Source: Cryomorphaceae bacterium (GTDB taxonomy: Bacteria > Bacteroidota > Bacteroidia > Flavobacteriales > ECT2AJA-044). Taken from it: 64,000 bases of DNA. How positions within the stretch are numbered: the first letter of the stretch is position 1; the number at the start of each line of letters is the position of its first letter. The notes under the pieces are model-generated. The model was not told the DNA's origin and made no database searches. It worked only from the letters and a program-made list of their open reading frames with translations. Shown piece by piece: positions 22,748 to 61,195 of the stretch. Location of the stretch: NCBI GenBank assembly GCA_017798125.1, contig CP059070.1:1736001-1800000 (forward strand), read 5' to 3'. Position numbers and translations under genes: made by a program.

Positions 22748-24205
22748 TTACTGAAAAGGAAAGCCAATTGTCAGCACAACACGCTGATCTTCGCGCTCGA
22801 CAGAGACGAGCTGATCCGTAATAGGTGCCCCCTCATGAATGTATCGATCGGCGCTGGTGCGTGTTGACGAAAGAGCCAAGTCTGCTTGAAAGTCTGAATT
22901 GCGGAAGCCAATTCCTCCGGAGATAATGGTTCGATCAAAGCTGAAAATGCTGTTTTGGACAACTGGACTTCCCCAAAGCTGGTACCCTGCTCTGAAATAG
23001 AAGTGACCTAGACGCCATTCAGTTCCAAAGCGCCAGATGGCCATGTCGGTATAGCTTTGGGCAATTTCTGAATTTGTAATTCCGTAGTTAACCTCGTCGG
23101 CATTAAACTGTGCATTCCCGTAATCTGCCCATTCGTAATCCACACTAATCAATCCTGCTGGAGCAATAACAATAGCACCACCGAGGTGAAGTCTTTGAGG
23201 TGTACGCAAGTTGTATATGAAGTTTCCTTCTGGACTATCGCGGACAAGTTCTCCACCGTCCGAAAAAGTAGTCCGCATCCGGGTCGAATAAAAGTCCTCA
23301 AGACCATACCAAGTAGGAGAGTGATAGGCCACCGCTAATCTCAACCAACCCGCTGGACGGTAAATTAGACCGAGTTTAAAATTGAAACCTCCACCGGTAG
23401 TCTCCAGAAACTCATCGTAGCTGAAACCACTTACGGTATTCGTCGCCGAGTCCAGTCCAGACTCAAAATAGCGTCGCTCTTCTGAATACGTGATAAGGGG
23501 GAAGTTCATGCTCAATCCCAAGTGCAGTTTATCTTGGTAGGTAGAGCTAACCCCAAAGTTGATTTCGCTTTGCCCGCCTTGGGAGGTCAAGTATTCCGAG
23601 GCATTTCCACCCGGATTTTGAACAAGTGGTATGTAGTTGTCTGGAGCGCCCAGAGTGTCAATTAAAAAGGTGTACCAAGCCAGTTCTGCGTCAAATTGAT
23701 TGGTAAAGATCAAGTCTTCGTAGTGCGTTCCTTGAGCTAGGTCGGCGAAGTACTGGGCCTTGGTTTGTTGCGTTTCACCAGCAATGAGCTGCTCGCGGTT
23801 AAAGTCGTTGGTCCTGCTGTATCCGATGGTTAAGGTTAGGTCATCCCATTTCGGTGTTCTAAATACGTCTTCGTAGCGCTTGACGAATCCAGCTCCCGTA
23901 ACATAGAAGTTTGCCGAGGATTCCGTCACCATGTTCCCTCCGTAGTTCGTAGTGGACTGAGGGGTATGGACGCCCATGGTCATTTCAAACTGAGAGGTTT
24001 TGTATATGCTTCCCCCGGCGGGGTTGATAAGGATACTGCTATAGTCTCCTCCCAAGGCATTGAAGGCACCTCCTAGTGCTTCATAGCGCGCTGTTCCTTG
24101 ATAGTTCAACAAGCTATATCGAAGAGCTTCTGATGCTGTCTGGGCGGTGGCGCCAGAGCATACCATTCCCATTATAGCTAATATGTAAAGTGCCTTCTGT
24201 TTCAT
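22748..24205 (-). CDS. OmpP1/FadL/TodX-type outer membrane transporter
   Basis: A 485-residue outer-membrane barrel. Signal peptide MKQKALYILAIMGMVCSGATAQ is followed by the typical plug start LNYQGTARYEALGGAFNALGGDYSSILINPAG, equivalent to the NPA hallmark of the FadL family. Repeated amphipathic strands run to the C-terminal QRVVLTIGFPFQ with the terminal aromatic. Family members take up hydrophobic molecules; the cargo here is unknown. It begins three bases after the stop of the W/N/G-rich protein gene, so they are co-transcribed. Confidence 0.88.
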   Translation of the reverse strand: MKQKALYILAIMGMVCSGATAQTASEALRYSLLNYQGTARYEALGGAFNALGGDYSSILINPAGGSIYKTSQFEMTMGVHTPQSTTNYGGNMVTESSANFYVTGAGFVKRYEDVFRTPKWDDLTLTIGYSRTNDFNREQLIAGETQQTKAQYFADLAQGTHYEDLIFTNQFDAELAWYTFLIDTLGAPDNYIPLVQNPGGNASEYLTSQGGQSEINFGVSSTYQDKLHLGLSMNFPLITYSEERRYFESGLDSATNTVSGFSYDEFLETTGGGFNFKLGLIYRPAGWLRLAVAYHSPTWYGLEDFYSTRMRTTFSDGGELVRDSPEGNFIYNLRTPQRLHLGGAIVIAPAGLISVDYEWADYGNAQFNADEVNYGITNSEIAQSYTDMAIWRFGTEWRLGHFYFRAGYQLWGSPVVQNSIFSFDRTIISGGIGFRNSDFQADLALSSTRTSADRYIHEGAPITDQLVSVEREDQRVVLTIGFPFQ

Positions 24206-24208
24206 GAT

Positions 24209-25489
24209 TTATCGTCTTCCGCCGCCGCGTGACCCTCCTCCGGAACTCCCACCGCGGGACCCACCTGAGCTGCCTCCTCGTGAACCACCTCCAAAGTTGA
24301 AGCTCGGACTTGAAGAGCCTCGGTTAAAGCTGGGCGTGCTTCCGCTATTGCTTCCGCGGTTCCAGCTCGGGCTAGTATTACCTCTATTGAAGTTCTGCCC
24401 TTGATTTTGATTTAGGGTAGGTGTCCATCCTCGATTGACATCACCACGCGCTCCATTCTGTGCTTCTTGGACAAAGCTCTCGAAGTTGCGCAAGAACCGT
24501 GGCATTTCGGATCGCTCGGTTTGAGCGCCACGTCCTTCGAATGGGTTCACTCCACGACGGAATTGCTCCATTTGTCGGTAATACTGATTTCCTCGGGCTT
24601 GAGCTTCGCGCATTTCAATGCGATCTGCATTTGTCTTTGTGATGCCCCGATTGCTTACGACATCCAATTCATTCATGCGAGAAGTACTGCGCTCAGAGGC
24701 TACATTTCTAGGGCGATCATTCTTGACCGTTCGCGGAGTGTGGCTTGAAGCGCGTTCAGATGAAGCTACTAGATCCTCGGCGACCGGCGCTTCAATGGTG
24801 CCTCGCTTTAGGGCTCCTTCGTACGCATTTTGCGTGTATCCTGTTGTAGGTCTGTTTTGGCCTCTTGGCGCATAAACCACTTGAGACATCACGTCAAAAG
24901 AGTTGTAGTATCCTGGGCAGTTCCAAGGACTCCATGGATTCCATGGGTTGAACCCAAAACCCGAACCGTACCAGGGGTTGTAGCCGTACATCGGGCCGTA
25001 GGCCCCGTTCATTCCTCCCCAACCCCAAGAATAACCTAGGCCCACGTTCCAGCCGCTCCAGCTGTTCCATCCGAGGCTGCTGTTCCATCCGGAATTGTTC
25101 CAACCATTGTTGTTCCAACCGTTCCAGTTTCCGGTATTCCAAGCATCGCTGTACAAGCTTGTTCCGAAGTTGCCCGGAGAAGGATCGTACCAACCCATAT
25201 TGGTGTGATACGGATCGTAGTATCCGAAGTCCGAGTCGCTGTGAAAACGACGGATTCGAGAACTGTACTCGTAAGGGTTTGCTTGGTTGGGGTCGAAGTT
25301 TGGATCGACGTAGTCAAAGTCCGCTGGATCTTGTGATTCTGGTTCTGGCTCAGCGTAGGCATAAACGTCAACGACGTCACCGCCGGGATCGTAAACACCA
25401 TCGTACTCACCGTTTTGGGCGAGGTACGCTGAAGAGCAAAGAGCTCAAAGAACTAAGGACAGGGGATATATAAGGAGATTCGCTTTCAT
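24209..25489 (-). CDS. W/N/G-rich exported protein, interrupted in signal peptide by TGA
   Basis: The intact open frame starts at ATG 25198 (329 residues), but the same frame continues upstream without gaps to ATG 25489 and there encodes a signal peptide MKANLLIYPLSLVL, a TGA at 25447-25445, then ALCSSAYLAQNGEYDGVYDPGG. So the natural gene is 426 codons and is broken at codon 15, or the TGA is a sequence error (TTA to TGA would restore Leu). The mature protein has an acidic Y/D/P-rich start, a tryptophan/asparagine/glycine repeat region (WNTGNWNGWNNNGWNNSGW type), a charged middle with many RG and SR, and a C-terminal glycine/serine/arginine repeat tail. Function is unknown; such low-complexity surface proteins occur in gliding Bacteroidota. 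Co-transcribed with the FadL-type gene. Confidence 0.65.
24990..25005 (+). repeat. Hairpin repeat copy 6 (in W/N/G-rich gene)
   Basis: ATC, GGGCC, loop GTA, GGCCC: perfect stem of the third stem type. It encodes Gly-Ala-Tyr-Gly-Pro-Met on the coding strand and is embedded in the glycine/tyrosine-rich repeats, where chance is more likely than elsewhere. Confidence 0.6.
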
Positions 25490-25518
25490 ACTCGAACGTT
25501 TTGGCCTTAAATAATTAA

Positions 25519-25526
25519 TACCTTTG
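25519..25526 (+). promoter_or_regulatory. Candidate -7 promoter element for proS
   Basis: TACCTTTG matches TAnnTTTG and lies 50 bases before the proS start. A TTTG occurs upstream at 25500 but with a 15-base rather than 19-base spacer. Confidence 0.4.
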
Positions 25527-25575
25527 AGGGCTTCAAGGTTCACATAATAAGATACAACTATTATACCAAACTCTT

Positions 25576-27048
25576 ATGGCAGCCAAGCTGACTAAAAGAT
25601 CGGACGATTACAGTAAGTGGTACAACGAATTGGTGGTGATGGCCGACCTCGCAGAAAACTCTGGGGTTCGGGGATCCATGGTGATCAAACCATATGGATA
25701 TGCCATCTGGGAAAAGATGCAGGCGGAATTGGATCGCATGTTCAAAGAAACAGGGCACGTGAACGCCTATTTCCCCTTGTTCATCCCGAAGTCCTATTTC
25801 AGTAAAGAAGCAAGCCATGTGGAGGGTTTTGCCAAGGAGTGCGCGGTGGTTACACACTACCGTTTGAAGAATGGAGAAGATGGGAGTATAGTCGTGGATG
25901 AAAAAGCCAAGCTCGAAGAAGAGCTCATCGTTCGCCCAACGTCGGAGACCATCATCTGGGACACCTACCGCAAGTGGGTACAGAGCTACCGCGATTTGCC
26001 GATTCTCGTGAACCAATGGGCGAACGTGGTGCGCTGGGAAATGCGTACTCGTTTATTCTTGCGTACAGCAGAATTCTTGTGGCAAGAAGGGCATACAGCG
26101 CATGCGACAAAGGATGAAGCGGTTGCTGAGGCGGAACAAATGCTCGATGTCTACGCCACCTTTGCGGAGCAGTTCATGGGTATTCCCGTTTTGCGCGGTG
26201 TGAAAAGTCCGAATGAGCGATTTGCGGGTGCATTAGAGACCTATTGTATTGAGGCCCTGATGCAAGACGGCAAGGCGCTTCAAGCGGGAACGAGTCACTT
26301 CTTGGGTCAGAATTTCGCCAAGGCCTTTGACGTACAGTTCCAGAGCAAAGAAGGTAAGTTGGAGCATGTGTGGGCCACCTCATGGGGTGTAAGTACGCGT
26401 TTGATGGGTGCTTTGGTCATGACGCACAGTGACGACAACGGCCTTGTGTTGCCTCCAAATTTGGCGCCTTATCAAGTGGTGCTGATTCCGATTTACCGAA
26501 GTGATGAGCAGCGCGATGCTGTAGTCGGTAAGTTGAAAGAGATTCAAAAGGAATTACGGTCTGCAGGTGTGCGTGTACACTTGGATGATCGCGACACCCA
26601 TAAGCCAGGTTGGAAATTCAATGAGTACGAGCTCAAAGGAGTGCCTGTACGCATTGCGATGGGGCCACGTGACTTAGAGAACGGAACCGTTGAATTGGCG
26701 CGCCGCGATACTTTGGAGAAAGAGTTCCTGCAACAAAGCGATATTGCCAATAAGGTGGACCATTTACTGGAAGCCATTCAGAAGAACTTATTCGATAAGG
26801 CCCTGACTTATCGGGACGATAATACGCACAGAGCGGATACCTGGGAGGAGTTCACTGACCTTATTGAAAACAAAGGCGGATTCGTATATGCTCATTGGGA
26901 TGGGACGCCTGAAACCGAAGAGAAAATCAAGGAAATGACCAAGGCGACAATCCGCTGTATCCCAATGGAGGCGCCGGAAGAGGAAGGGAAGTGCATCTTG
27001 ACTGGGGCGGCGTCGAAAAGACGCGTTGTCTTTGCCAAGGCATATTGA
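25576..27048 (+). CDS. proS: Prolyl-tRNA synthetase (archaeal/eukaryal-like type)
   Basis: A 490-residue class II synthetase without the bacterial editing insert. Motif 1/2 regions ([69 protein letters not shown]) and motif 3 ([27 protein letters not shown]) are clear, followed by the anticodon-binding domain and a C-terminal zinc-type domain starting near residue 400. It charges tRNA-Pro. Start ATG at 25576. This form is standard in Bacteroidota. Confidence 0.96.
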
Positions 27049-55053: not shown

Positions 55054-56154
55054 TTATTGAACCACTACTTTTTCAGCCTGGTCCGCCCACTGGACGTAGT
55101 AGATTCCCTTTGGGATTTCACTCAAGTCGTACAAGCGAACGAAGGGTTGAGAGCCTTCATGCTTCGGCACATCGATTTGCTGACCCAATTGGTTGAACCA
55201 AAGGATGGGCCCATCCACACGACCTTCAATAGTGATCACTGAACTAGCAGGATTCGGATAAATGTGCAGGAACTCCTGAGGTTCTTCCAGACCGACGGTG
55301 GAATAGTTGACCACCTGGCAAGAATCAGAACTGCAGCCTTGGTCATCGGTCGTGGTCATGCACACAGTGTAATTACCGTCCTGAGCATAAGTATGGGTGA
55401 CCAAGTTTCCCTGGTCCGTATTTCCATCGCCAAAGTCCCAATCGTAGGTAAAGGCACTACTGCCACTTGAAGTGAAAGTGAACTGTTGACCGGCTTGAAG
55501 TGCTGAGAACCCAAATGCGGGTTCAGGTCCTACATAAACACTTTTTGAAGTACTGTCTGTACATCCTGGGTCTATGGCGACTTGAGAAATCTCCACAGTG
55601 CCGGATAGTCCAGTTAAATTAAAATCACCAACACCACTGTGGTCAAATGCTCCGTTCACATACCAATCGACATTGGTCGTTCCGGCACTATTGTCCGTGA
55701 CTTGAATGGGTGCATCCCAACAGTATAGACTGTCGTTGGTGCTGAAATTGGCCGAAGCCGGACAGCAACTTCCCAAGGTAAAGGTCTGTGGGAAGGTCGA
55801 GGTGATCTGCGAAAAGGGCGTAAAATACGCCTCCATGATGAGGGTGGTCAGTCCAGGCGTGCCCACATTGGCTGGAACGGTTACGGTATGGGTGTAAGGC
55901 GTAATGACCGTTAGTCCAAAGCCCGGCGCATCAAAAGTGACTCGAACGGTCATGGTATTTCCGCTCACGGTTACATTATCCCCGGTGACAATGTAATTGG
56001 TTGCCGGCAAATCCCCCGCAATGTTAACGGTGAAGGGCTGGCAGTCCAGTGGGTTAGCAGAAATTACGGCACTCGTTATGGTTTGAGCTGAAGCAATACT
56101 AGAGCACAAAATCACTGCTAGGAACGAATGAAGGAGCGGCTTTAAATTTTTCAT
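55054..56154 (-). CDS. PKD-domain protein with T9SS sorting signal (tandem copy B)
   Basis: A 366-residue secreted protein. ATG at 56154 gives signal peptide MKNLKPLLHSFLAVILCSSIASAQ. Domains: a unique N-terminal beta region (about 25-135), a Cys-containing conserved block from LGSCCPASANFSTNDSLYCWD, a PKD domain (YDWDFGDGNTDQGNLVTHTYAQDGNYTV, about 245-285) and a C-terminal T9SS sorting domain (LHIYPNPASSVITIEG to the end). It is a paralogue of the gene just upstream: from about residue 130 on the two are nearly identical, while the N-termini differ strongly. The stop and start of the two overlap as ATGA. Role may be surface adhesion or binding; this is inferred. Confidence 0.85.
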   Translation of the reverse strand: MKNLKPLLHSFLAVILCSSIASAQTITSAVISANPLDCQPFTVNIAGDLPATNYIVTGDNVTVSGNTMTVRVTFDAPGFGLTVITPYTHTVTVPANVGTPGLTTLIMEAYFTPFSQITSTFPQTFTLGSCCPASANFSTNDSLYCWDAPIQVTDNSAGTTNVDWYVNGAFDHSGVGDFNLTGLSGTVEISQVAIDPGCTDSTSKSVYVGPEPAFGFSALQAGQQFTFTSSGSSAFTYDWDFGDGNTDQGNLVTHTYAQDGNYTVCMTTTDDQGCSSDSCQVVNYSTVGLEEPQEFLHIYPNPASSVITIEGRVDGPILWFNQLGQQIDVPKHEGSQPFVRLYDLSEIPKGIYYVQWADQAEKVVVQ

Positions 56155-57236
56155 TGAATCACAATTTTTTCGGCTTGATCTGCCCACTGAACATAGTAGA
56201 TTCCTTTGGGAATTTCACGAAGGTCATAAAGCCGTACAAAGGGCTGAGAGCCCTCGTGCTTCGGTACATCGATCTGCTGACCCAATTGGTTGAACCAGAG
56301 GATGGGTCCATCCACGCGGCCTTCAATCGTGATCAATGAACTTGCTGGGTTCGGGTAGATGTGCAGGAACTCCTGAGGCTCATCCAGGCCTACCGTAGAG
56401 TAATTCACAACCTGACAGGAATCAGCATTGCAGTTTTGATCATCAGTCGTGGTCATGCAAACCGTGTAATTGCCGTCTTGGGCGTAGGTATGGGTCACTA
56501 AGTTTCCTTGTGCTGTGTTTCCGTCTCCAAAGTCCCAATCGTAGGTATAGGCACTGCTGCCACCTGCCGTGAACGTGAACTGCTGACCTACTTGAAGGGC
56601 CGAAAATCCAAAGGCTGGCTCAAGGGCCACATAAACACTCTTCGAAGTACTGTCGGTACATCCAGGATCAATCGCCACCTGTGAGATTTCAACGGTCCCC
56701 GTGTGTCCGGATAGGACAAAATCTCCAACTCCGCTATGATCAAAAGCGCCGTTGACATACCAGTCTACGTTTGTCGTTCCCGCGCTGTTGTCCGTGACTT
56801 GAATAGGGGAGTCCCAACAGTAAAGACTGTCGTTGGTGCTGAAATTGGCGGATGCTGGACAGCAACTTCCTAAAGTAAATGGAGTGGTGAACGAAGCCGA
56901 GTTTTGACCAATGGGTACACTGAAAATGGTGATATTCAATTGGTAGGACCCCGCAGGTACAGCGTTTGCCGGAATGTTGATGACGTGGGTGTAGGGTGCA
57001 AACATCGGATTCCCAATAGGCGGTGCATCGAAGGTGATCAGCACATCGAGATTGCTGCCATTGACGGTATAGCTATCCGCCGAGACAAAATACTGGGGCA
57101 TGGGCTTCATTCCATCTACGGTAATGGTCCAGGCCTGACAATCTAGAGGGTTATTGGAAACGGCAACGGCTGTAATGCTTTGGGCCATTGCAAAAGTGGT
57201 GCTCACCAAAGCGAGCAAGAGTAGAAACTTCTTCAT
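56151..57236 (-). CDS. PKD-domain protein with T9SS sorting signal (tandem copy A)
   Basis: A 361-residue secreted protein with signal peptide MKKFLLLLALVSTTFAMAQ, N-terminal domain opening ITAVAVSNNPLDCQAWTITVDG, a PKD domain (YDWDFGDGNTAQGNLVTHTYAQDGNYTV) and T9SS sorting domain (LHIYPNPASSLITIEG). It is the first copy of the tandem pair. Many third-position differences to copy B in the shared part show an old duplication kept similar by selection on protein. A hairpin lies upstream at 57257-57282. Confidence 0.85.
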   Translation of the reverse strand: MKKFLLLLALVSTTFAMAQSITAVAVSNNPLDCQAWTITVDGMKPMPQYFVSADSYTVNGSNLDVLITFDAPPIGNPMFAPYTHVINIPANAVPAGSYQLNITIFSVPIGQNSASFTTPFTLGSCCPASANFSTNDSLYCWDSPIQVTDNSAGTTNVDWYVNGAFDHSGVGDFVLSGHTGTVEISQVAIDPGCTDSTSKSVYVALEPAFGFSALQVGQQFTFTAGGSSAYTYDWDFGDGNTAQGNLVTHTYAQDGNYTVCMTTTDDQNCNADSCQVVNYSTVGLDEPQEFLHIYPNPASSLITIEGRVDGPILWFNQLGQQIDVPKHEGSQPFVRLYDLREIPKGIYYVQWADQAEKIVIQ

Positions 57237-57327: not shown

Positions 57328-59049
57328 CTAACGAAGTCCCATGGAATCGATAATTCCGTCAATTCTCTCTTCCAATCCAGCCTCTACGGAATCAAAGTCC
57401 CCTTTGCTTTCTAGAGCTCCTTTGACGGAGAAATAGAACTTGATCTTGGGTTCCGTTCCCGACGGACGTGCTGAAATCTTTGAGCCGTCCTCGGTGTAGA
57501 ATTGAAGCACATTTGAAGAGGGTAGGTCTATGGCTTGAGTGGAACCATCGACGAGGTTCTTCTCTACCAGGCTTCCGTAGTCCAACATGCGAACTACTTT
57601 CGATCCATTGATTTCTGCCGGGGATTATTGGCGGTACGCTTCCATCATCGCCTTGATCTCAGCGGCTCCGTCACGTCCCTTCTTGACAATACTGATTAAG
57701 CGCTCTTTATAGAAGCCGTATTTGATGTACACATCGAGCAATCGGTCGAAGAAAGAAGATCCTCGAGATTGCGCTTCAGCACCAATTTCTGAGGCGATGA
57801 GGGCACTGGTTACGGCATCTTTATCGCGAACGAAATCGCCGACCATGTATCCGAAACTTTCTTCACCACCTCCGACAAAGGTCTTGAGGCCTTCGCGTTC
57901 GCGAATCAATTCGGCGATCCACTTGAATCCCGTAAGGCAAACGGGGCACTCCAGGTTATTTGCTTCCGCGATGTCCATGAAGAGTTCGCTGGTCACAATA
58001 GTAGAGGCGATGAATTCATTTCCGGCGAGCTTCCCTGCCTTACCCCATTGTTCGATGAGATAATCGGTCATGACCGCTCCAGTCTGATTACCGTTGAGTA
58101 AGCGCAATTCACCTTTGTGGTCGCGGACAGCGATTCCAATTCGGTCCGAATCAGGATCGGTACCGATGACCATATCCGCACCTTTTTCTTCGGCGAGGGC
58201 AACGGCCATACTCAAGGCTTCAGGCTCTTCAGGGTTGGGCGAAACGACTGTAGGGAAGTTTCCATTGGGTTCGGCTTGTTCTTGAACGATATAGACGTTC
58301 TGAAATCCAGCACGCTCGAGTACTTGAGGAACTCCATTGATGGATGTTCCATGGATAGAGGTGAAAACGACCTTGAAGGTGTCTTTACCACCAACATCAA
58401 ATCCTTGTGAGACGGAAGCATTGTAAAAGGCCTCGTCGACTTCCGCGCCAATGACCTCGATCAATTGATCATTACCCTCGAATTTGACCTGATCTGGGCT
58501 CGTTATTTTTTCGACTTCCGCAATGATGAGCTTGTCGTGAGGACGTACGATTTGCGCGCCATCGTTCCAGTATACCTTGTATCCGTTATACTCTTTTGGA
58601 TTGTGCGAGGCCGTCAATACAATTCCGCTGTGACAGCCCAGGTGTCGTATGGTGAAGGACAACTCGGGAGTTGGTCTAAGACTTTCGAAGAGGTATACCT
58701 TGATGCCGTTAGCGCTGAAAACCTCTGCTACCTGTCGGGCAAAGGTGTCCGAGTTATTTCGGCAGTCAAAGGCAATGGCCACTTTGAGCTCTTCGCCCGG
58801 GAAGCACTCGATCATGTAGTTGCACAATCCCTGAGTAGCCATTCCAAGGGTGTACTTGTTGATACGGTTGGTTCCCGGCCCCATGATTCCGCGCATACCT
58901 CCTGTGCCGAAGGTGAGGCTTTGGTAAAAGGAATCGGTGAGTTCTTGGGGATCGCTATCAATCATGTGACGAATCTGAGACTTGGTCTCTTCGTCATAGT
59001 TTCCGTTGAGCCACTCTTGGGCTTTATCCAGGATCGCTTGTTCGATCAT
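57328..59049 (-). pseudogene. Phosphoglucomutase/phosphomannomutase interrupted by an in-frame TAA
   Basis: The full gene would be about 573 codons. The first 474 residues (57625-59049) contain LTFGTGGMRGIMGPGTNRIN, the catalytic serine loop GIVLTASHNPKEYNG, the metal loop IGTDPDSDRIGIAVRD and the sugar-binding GGGEESFGY. The frame then meets TAA at 57627-57625 and continues in the same frame as SPAEINGSKVVRMLDYGSLVEKN to the phosphate-binding end ARPSGTEPKIKFYFSV (57328). So the C-terminal domain that holds the phosphate-binding loop is detached by one nonsense codon, without frameshift. An ATG at 57588 could start the 86-residue fragment. A sequence error, a recent mutation, or reinitiation giving two chains are all possible. 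The enzyme normally interconverts hexose 1- and 6-phosphates. Confidence 0.85.
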
Positions 59050-59821: not shown

Positions 59822-61195
59822 TCATGATGTTGATTCGAAGTACCGGATATCCGCTTTTTGGTTTTGCCTTAAAAATCCGAGAATCAAGCTTTGGGTATGG
59901 CGGTTGTCTTCGTACGGTGTGATGTACAGACGTAGTTGATCCACAAGCTCTACGGGCTGATCGGTAGGAATATACCCAAAGCCCTTGTATCGGCCTTCTT
60001 CAATGAGTACGGCGCTCTGCTCAGTATCGTCGCGCCCTCGGTCCAAAATGAAGAAGTTGGGCTCGGGATAAGCAAACTGCTCCAGCACTCGGTCCACTTT
60101 GGCATTGTACTTCCTCAGCAGGCTCTGCCCCAGATGTGCTCCGCTACATTGCCCCACAGAGACGTGAAAACACCCTTTTTCGCTTTTGTACAGTCCGCAT
60201 AAACAGGGGCAGAGCTCGTATTCTTCCTTGAGCCATTCGAGATGCCGGCGACCTTCCGTCATGGTGGAATAGGTGCATAGCGGCACCTCCTGTTCTTTTT
60301 GGGATTTGACCTTTAGCTCGCGATATCCCTTACTGTTCATGTGCTCATATAGACCGTAGGTGTAGCTGTTGCGCCTTGCGGCGCGATTAAACTTTGGCCG
60401 ATGCTTCTTGATCTCGTGGCTTTCCAGCAGAAGGGAAATCAACTCGCTTCCACAGATTTCGAAGTCGATCGAGGCGATCTCCTCCATCATACGTACGCCT
60501 TTTTCCGTCTCGTAATTGTTGAGGTGCTGAAGAATTCGAGACTTGATATTGGTGCTCTTACCGACATAAATCAGCATACCGTCAGCATCGTACAGGTAGT
60601 AGACACCAATTTTATTCGGCAGGTTCTGGACGACGGCCGGACTCAGTCCGGTGGCGTATTCCCCTTTGCTCGGAGCTTTTCCTCCGCCAATGATCCCTTC
60701 AAAATCATTGGCCAAGAGCATCTCAAAAAGCGTAACCGTGGCACGGGCATCTCCGGCGGCACGGTGACGGGCCGATATCTCGATGCCCAGCTCAGCGGAT
60801 AGCTTCCCGAGGCTGTAAGAACGTTTGCCTGGCAGTAGCTTTCGACTGAGTTTGACCGTGCACAGTGTATCGCGTTCATACTCGTAACCCAGCGCCCTGA
60901 ATTCCGCCTTGAAAAAGCCGTAATCGAACTTGCTGTTGTGCGCCACAAAGACGCAATCCTCCGTAAACTCGACGATCTCCTTCGCCACCTCATAGAAGTG
61001 CGGCGCGTTTTCGACCATTTCATTGGTGATGCCCGTAAGACCAGTAATGTTATAGGGAATTCGCTTTTCGGGATTGATCAGGCTTTGCCACTCCGCAACG
61101 ATTTTAAAACCGTCGTGCTTGTACATGGCAATTTCGGTAATGCGCTCATTACGCGCACTTCCGCCCGTGGTCTCTATATCTATGATGCAATACAA
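59822..61195 (-). CDS. DEDDh exonuclease fused to GIY-YIG nuclease domain
   Basis: A 457-residue protein. Residues 1-165 are a DnaQ-like 3'-5' exonuclease with IDIETTG (DxE), VFVAHNSKFDYGFFK and HRAAGDARAT (the H...D of DEDDh). From about 195 a UvrC-like GIY-YIG domain follows (KIGVYYLYDADGMLIYVGKSTNIKSRILQHL), then a region resembling the UvrC C-terminal part with four cysteines in LCPCLCGLYKSEKGCF. The combination is known as a PolC-epsilon-like/Cho-like fusion in Bacteroidota and actinobacteria; it is thought to act in DNA repair. RAARRNSYTY is encoded by a hairpin repeat. It follows the phosphoesterase gene immediately. Confidence 0.9.
   Translation of the reverse strand: MYCIIDIETTGGSARNERITEIAMYKHDGFKIVAEWQSLINPEKRIPYNITGLTGITNEMVENAPHFYEVAKEIVEFTEDCVFVAHNSKFDYGFFKAEFRALGYEYERDTLCTVKLSRKLLPGKRSYSLGKLSAELGIEISARHRAAGDARATVTLFEMLLANDFEGIIGGGKAPSKGEYATGLSPAVVQNLPNKIGVYYLYDADGMLIYVGKSTNIKSRILQHLNNYETEKGVRMMEEIASIDFEICGSELISLLLESHEIKKHRPKFNRAARRNSYTYGLYEHMNSKGYRELKVKSQKEQEVPLCTYSTMTEGRRHLEWLKEEYELCPCLCGLYKSEKGCFHVSVGQCSGAHLGQSLLRKYNAKVDRVLEQFAYPEPNFFILDRGRDDTEQSAVLIEEGRYKGFGYIPTDQPVELVDQLRLYITPYEDNRHTQSLILGFLRQNQKADIRYFESTS
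60370..60387 (-). repeat. Hairpin repeat copy 17 (in exonuclease/GIY-YIG gene)
   Basis: On the minus strand ATC, GCGCC, loop GCAA, GGCGC, A: perfect stem, four-base loop; encodes Asn-Arg-Ala-Ala-Arg-Arg-Asn. Confidence 0.65.

Follow-up and report, generated by a model that had tools for sequence, protein, structure and literature searches.

Does the stop codon near the start of a conserved surface lipoprotein gene belong to this bacterium, or only to its genome as assembled? On the minus strand of the window (the whole 64-kb stretch of DNA that was analysed), an ATG at 25489-25487 opens a signal peptide, MKANLLIYPLSLVL, and 13 further signal-peptide codons follow it before the frame is closed by a TGA at codon 15. 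Past the TGA the frame begins ALCSSAYLAQNGEYDG and is open for 411 codons, up to a TAA at 24211-24209 on the same strand. The first in-frame ATG, GTG or TTG in that stretch is the ATG at 25198 (Met98), ahead of which lies an acidic stretch. The signal peptide, the TGA at codon 15, the acidic region and the apparent start at 25198 had been reported in a preliminary description of the window and were found in the sequence as described. Three readings were offered there: sequence error, ongoing gene decay, or silencing of a surface protein by something like phase variation. The choice between them has consequences, for if the TGA were taken at face value, a conserved surface lipoprotein would be missing from the annotation of the genome, and arguments for decay or silencing would draw on its absence. 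The features of the locus are as follows.

24209 to 25489, minus strand: conserved lipoprotein gene, 426 codons (with the stop read through) plus the final TAA; intact orthologue in a congener, 65% identity
25445 to 25447, minus strand: TGA at codon 15, in the sequence as given
22748 to 24205, minus strand: FadL-like outer membrane protein gene (PF03349, E 1.8e-9), directly downstream and kept in relatives
25576 to 27048, plus strand: proS, prolyl-tRNA synthetase (by Pfam), the divergent neighbour, kept in relatives

The lipoprotein gene is present as a single copy in the 2.84 Mb, single-contig genome, and no further break beyond the TGA was seen in it. Its product is a low-complexity protein, with a conserved region of the SSRIRRF type, a middle rich in Trp, Asn and Gly, and an Arg/Gly-rich tail. 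Neither the window ORF nor any of five relatives matched a Pfam family, and the members tried against NCBIfam gave one match, far below the cut-off, so that no model there covers them. A scan of genome contigs with the window ORF as query found no relative, and one with the family alignment as query found five distant Bacteroidota loci, of which four (L138, L139, L141 and L142) have N-termini that by eye are lipoprotein-like. Because three bases separate the end of the lipoprotein gene from the FadL-like gene, the two probably share one transcript, and gene order allows the guess that the lipoprotein has a role beside the FadL-like porin, with which it may work.

The searches of relatives bore directly on where the protein starts. 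A match to the FadL-like protein was obtained in 120 of the 148 genomes of the order that were searched (the window's own genome and the congener included), and the neighbourhood was retrieved from 20 of the other genomes, mostly ones high in the list of those matches. The arrangement seen at 22748-27048, i.e., a divergent proS, a gene with a signal peptide (judged by eye) and a FadL-like gene, was present in the congener and in 19 of these 20 relatives, the twentieth (L040) stopping at a contig edge, and is thus widely kept in the order. None of the 19 relatives, nor the congener, has a stop in the signal peptide; the window genome alone has one. In L042 (3844-4841), the lipoprotein gene appears to be split between two ORFs that overlap in different frames, perhaps through a frameshift in the repetitive middle.

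That the gene starts at 25198, with a non-coding frame upstream, is an explanation that has in its favor the position of this ATG as the first start codon past the TGA. The preliminary description had itself allowed for relatives that start at the later methionine and lack a signal peptide, and had proposed an orthologue alignment of the N-terminus. In that alignment, codons 1-97 are gap-free against the orthologue of the congener (G001), which is intact at 418 residues (MKATLLILTLSTAFITACSSGYLAQNGEYDG), and the relatives start at the signal peptide. Over codons 16-97 (the 82 codons from the TGA to Met98), pN/pS was 0.17, compared with 0.36 from Met98 on, 0.21 for the FadL-like gene and 0.07 for proS, all rough values with synonymous sites near saturation. 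We consider that the conserved N-terminus refutes the later start, which is highly improbable. Based on these values, the post-TGA frame looks constrained, and the relaxed constraint after the lesion that would be a sign of a pseudogene was absent, a picture that a very recent loss would give as well. Ongoing decay thus fared poorly among the three readings, given a frame with the appearance of constraint past the TGA and no further break.

The continuation of 411 codons under constraint past the TGA could also be accommodated if the codon were read through or recoded, by selenocysteine insertion or a suppressor tRNA. The probability of this is close to nil, as the window's other nonsense codon is a TAA, TGA terminates 14 of the 52 long ORFs of the window, and a stop at the position of the TGA occurs in none of the relatives examined. 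In addition, none of the eight matches to a tRNA-Sec model in the genome exceeded the cut-off (best, 44 versus 47 bits), although this is a weak test, since such matches occurred in all 14 control genomes, and above the cut-off in five of them.

The letters around the TGA carry a second irregularity, which concerns the lipobox.

25439 to 25447, minus strand: frame-slipped patch, codons 15-17, written stop-A-L; one base earlier it reads L-S-S
25436 to 25438, minus strand: Cys18, the expected lipidation site; 15 of the 21 rows aligned have Cys here

As written, the lipobox is broken, with a stop at -3 and Leu at -1, and it is present one base out of frame. A regular expression for the lipobox matched 16 of 20 proteins (those of the 19 relatives and the congener), and the exclusion of L035 and L039, judged to be signal peptidase I types, left 14, in which the residue just before the Cys is Ser (13) or Ala (one) and never Leu. 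Against a profile of positions -4 to -1, the shifted reading scored 10.2 and the written reading -0.74, and of the 11,712 shifted readings tried at 366 signal-peptide-like N-termini (loci sampled from both genomes), 6 reached 10.2. With L035 and L039 retained, the scores were 9.9 versus 1.99, and among 4,475 codon positions from 10 genes of the window, 6 reached 9.9. Compared with the congener alone, the patch gives a weak signal (gain 9; 5.3% of the 5,391 diverged columns do as well), as would be expected where a signal peptide changes fast. Short one-base runs flank the patch.

These observations bear on the proposal that a real and recent null mutation, either a nonsense substitution or a small paired indel in the signal peptide, has cost this strain its lipoprotein. 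The TGA is present in the sequence as given, and a single-copy gene that is not known to be essential could be lost in this way. However, a lone substitution would leave Leu before the Cys, a residue found there in none of the 14 lipobox relatives, and the TGA, to judge by its sequence context, is probably not a single nonsense substitution. For the paired indel, the question becomes whether similar patches occur in other genes.

Antisense frames overwhelmed a survey of all stop-free frames, and a frameshift-aware alignment of orthologues and a scan for patches were used instead. The sample comprised 400 kb of the window's own genome, half of it adjoining the window, and ~1.23 Mb of the congener; congener proteins yielded 167 alignments on own DNA, and the reverse direction yielded 170. 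Of the 27 stops called on own DNA, 24 were dropped by eye, with no coded rule, as belonging to antisense ORFs or preceding the probable start. The three judged to be inside real genes, those for the lipoprotein, a phosphosugar mutase and mreB (the names mutase and mreB, like MacB-like below, are ones we presume from recognition of the sequences), all resemble frame-slipped patches. The preliminary count of two clean nonsense codons within the window holds, the other being the TAA at 57627-57625 in the mutase gene, and each of the two stops sits in a patch of ~3 codons for which a reading shifted by one base fits better. The window also contains a patch of this kind that has no stop.

57625 to 57627, minus strand: TAA, the window's second nonsense codon, in the phosphosugar mutase gene (57334-59049); the patch reads N-N-P one base later
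60110 to 60124, minus strand: stop-free frame-slipped patch within the gene at 59825-61195; written S-L-L-R-K, and E-P-A-E-E one base earlier

The mutase patch had a gain of 19, reached by 0.58% of the 5,391 diverged columns, and the patch in mreB, which has a TGA at L094 11762 and was compared with the congener alone, had a gain of 21, reached by 0.26%. This is the only mreB of the genome, the other two matches being distant (28% and 35% identity). Since a comparison of two genomes cannot tell which of them is slipped, relatives from the order were aligned for three genes, namely the mutase gene, the gene at 59825-61195 and a MacB-like permease gene (L094 14215-15453) with two frame-slipped patches, and in all three they favor the shifted reading. 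At the third position of the mutase patch, all seven other rows (the congener and six relatives) have Pro, where own DNA gives Ser as written and Pro when shifted. In the gene at 59825-61195, the four other rows all have Glu and then Glu or Asp before a Tyr, and own DNA gives Arg-Lys as written and Glu-Glu shifted. The first MacB-like patch, where seven of seven other rows have L-G-A, is written L-G-G and shifts to G-A-K-N-S, and the second, where six of seven have Gly, is written with Arg and shifts to Gly.

Several other places were recorded in passing. The highest gain of the scan, 27, was in L083, in the gene matched by L056 3-1667, where three residues in a row fit the congener only when the frame is moved by one base; the comparison was with the congener only, and either genome may be the slipped one. 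High gains were also recorded for an N-terminus in L080 (23) and for one in L094 (17; L123|12600). A tandem duplication lies at 55054-57236, where two adjacent ORFs match one congener protein, with 60% and 56% identity.

On congener DNA, 14 stops were called, and 8 were dropped on the same by-eye grounds, leaving 6 in genes judged real (L130 16091, L054 2210 and 5273, L119 14958, L118 1416 and L056 7956). Five of these were scanned and gave gains of 10, 2, 1, -3 and 5, and the sixth fell short of the identity that the scan required. A strong patch is thus not the usual company of a stop, and stops of another origin therefore occur in the genus or its assemblies. Given these six stops, null alleles may be common in the genus, which would suit a genuine loss of the lipoprotein in this strain. 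A real compensating pair that encloses a stop gains nothing under selection, however, so that evolution would not be expected to produce several of them, and yet the patches recur, with mreB among the genes affected. Taken together, we regard a real null mutation as unlikely.

The recurrence of the patches also bears on two further ways in which the TGA could be real. Surface protein genes broken in their early codons are usual targets of phase switches, and this gene is broken in just that place, so its silencing could be phase-variable, the ON form being carried by other members of the population. By eye, however, the runs near the patch are of four bases or fewer, no long homopolymer or short tandem repeat was found at the patch, and the same type of slip is found in mreB, the mutase gene and the MacB-like gene; this third reading of the preliminary description did not hold up, and there is very little chance that it is correct. 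Alternatively, the patches could all be real, if a mutational process of the lineage were to make one-base slips in pairs that preserve length, at short runs close to one another. Were that so, slipped patches of 3-5 codons would be scattered through its genes, and some, by including stops, would silence surface proteins. This we consider very unlikely.

Evidence that the contig itself is at fault came from the 20 kb directly left of the window (L082). Of the 23 frameshifts called here, two are in antisense ORFs and 21 fall in six translation genes that adjoin one another and that, by sequence recognition, are presumably fusA, rplC, rplD, rplN, rplX and rplE. This cluster of ribosomal protein genes and fusA (L082 787-8398, i.e., 1716787-1724398 of own genome), with its one-base frameshifts, is probably a stretch of poor assembly. 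The 23 are part of 36 frameshifts called on own DNA, of which the 13 elsewhere were presumed to be wrong starts or antisense; three of those fall inside the window, each at or before residue 39 of the reference ORF. The rplN of the cluster has in-frame stops, and a genome search found no second copy of it. A cell is not expected to be viable with its sole uL14 gene broken in this way, and the contig therefore contains sequence errors. Two single-copy essential genes, rplN and mreB, have lesions in this same contig. Dense and in part unpaired, the errors of L082 differ from the patches, which are isolated and paired, and the two need not share one cause.

Since the contig contains errors, and since recurrent compensating pairs are not expected from evolution, error is the most likely source of the TGA. 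Of the three original readings, sequence error is thus the best supported; the TGA most likely arose in assembly or consensus and would not then be a biological nonsense codon, and the lipoprotein gene of the organism is probably intact. Two compensating one-base length errors close together would put a patch of ~9 bases out of register, and in that slipped patch a normal lipobox codon would read as TGA. In the organism, the gene, adjoining the FadL-like gene and back to back with proS, would then encode an intact surface lipoprotein, with export, lipidation at Cys18 and a final location in the outer membrane. The errors usual in long reads occur singly, and do not account for the compensating pairs seen here. 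With slipped patches in the housekeeping genes of a single-contig genome, its other odd stops and short divergent stretches deserve the same check.

Among the papers listed by literature searches, none contained the phrase "compensatory frameshift", and the one listed on errors in long-read metagenome genomes concerned a eukaryote. The fragmentation of genes by indel errors in bacterial long-read assemblies is well documented (PMC12007338, PMC8812927); these are one-base errors, often at runs of one base, that produce false stops, in housekeeping genes too. Unlike the errors in those accounts, the patches in this genome are mostly compensating pairs that preserve length. The family resembles the lipoproteins of Bacteroidota with type II signal peptides, in that 14 of its 20 members have a lipobox, and the window gene has Cys18 and, out of frame, the L-S-S that precedes it; unlike those lipoproteins, its lipobox is broken as written. 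In its place between proS and the FadL-like gene, its direction, its signal peptide and its SSRIRRF-type region, it matches the conserved gene of Flavobacteriales-like genomes, and among the genomes compared a stop in the signal peptide was seen in the window genome alone.
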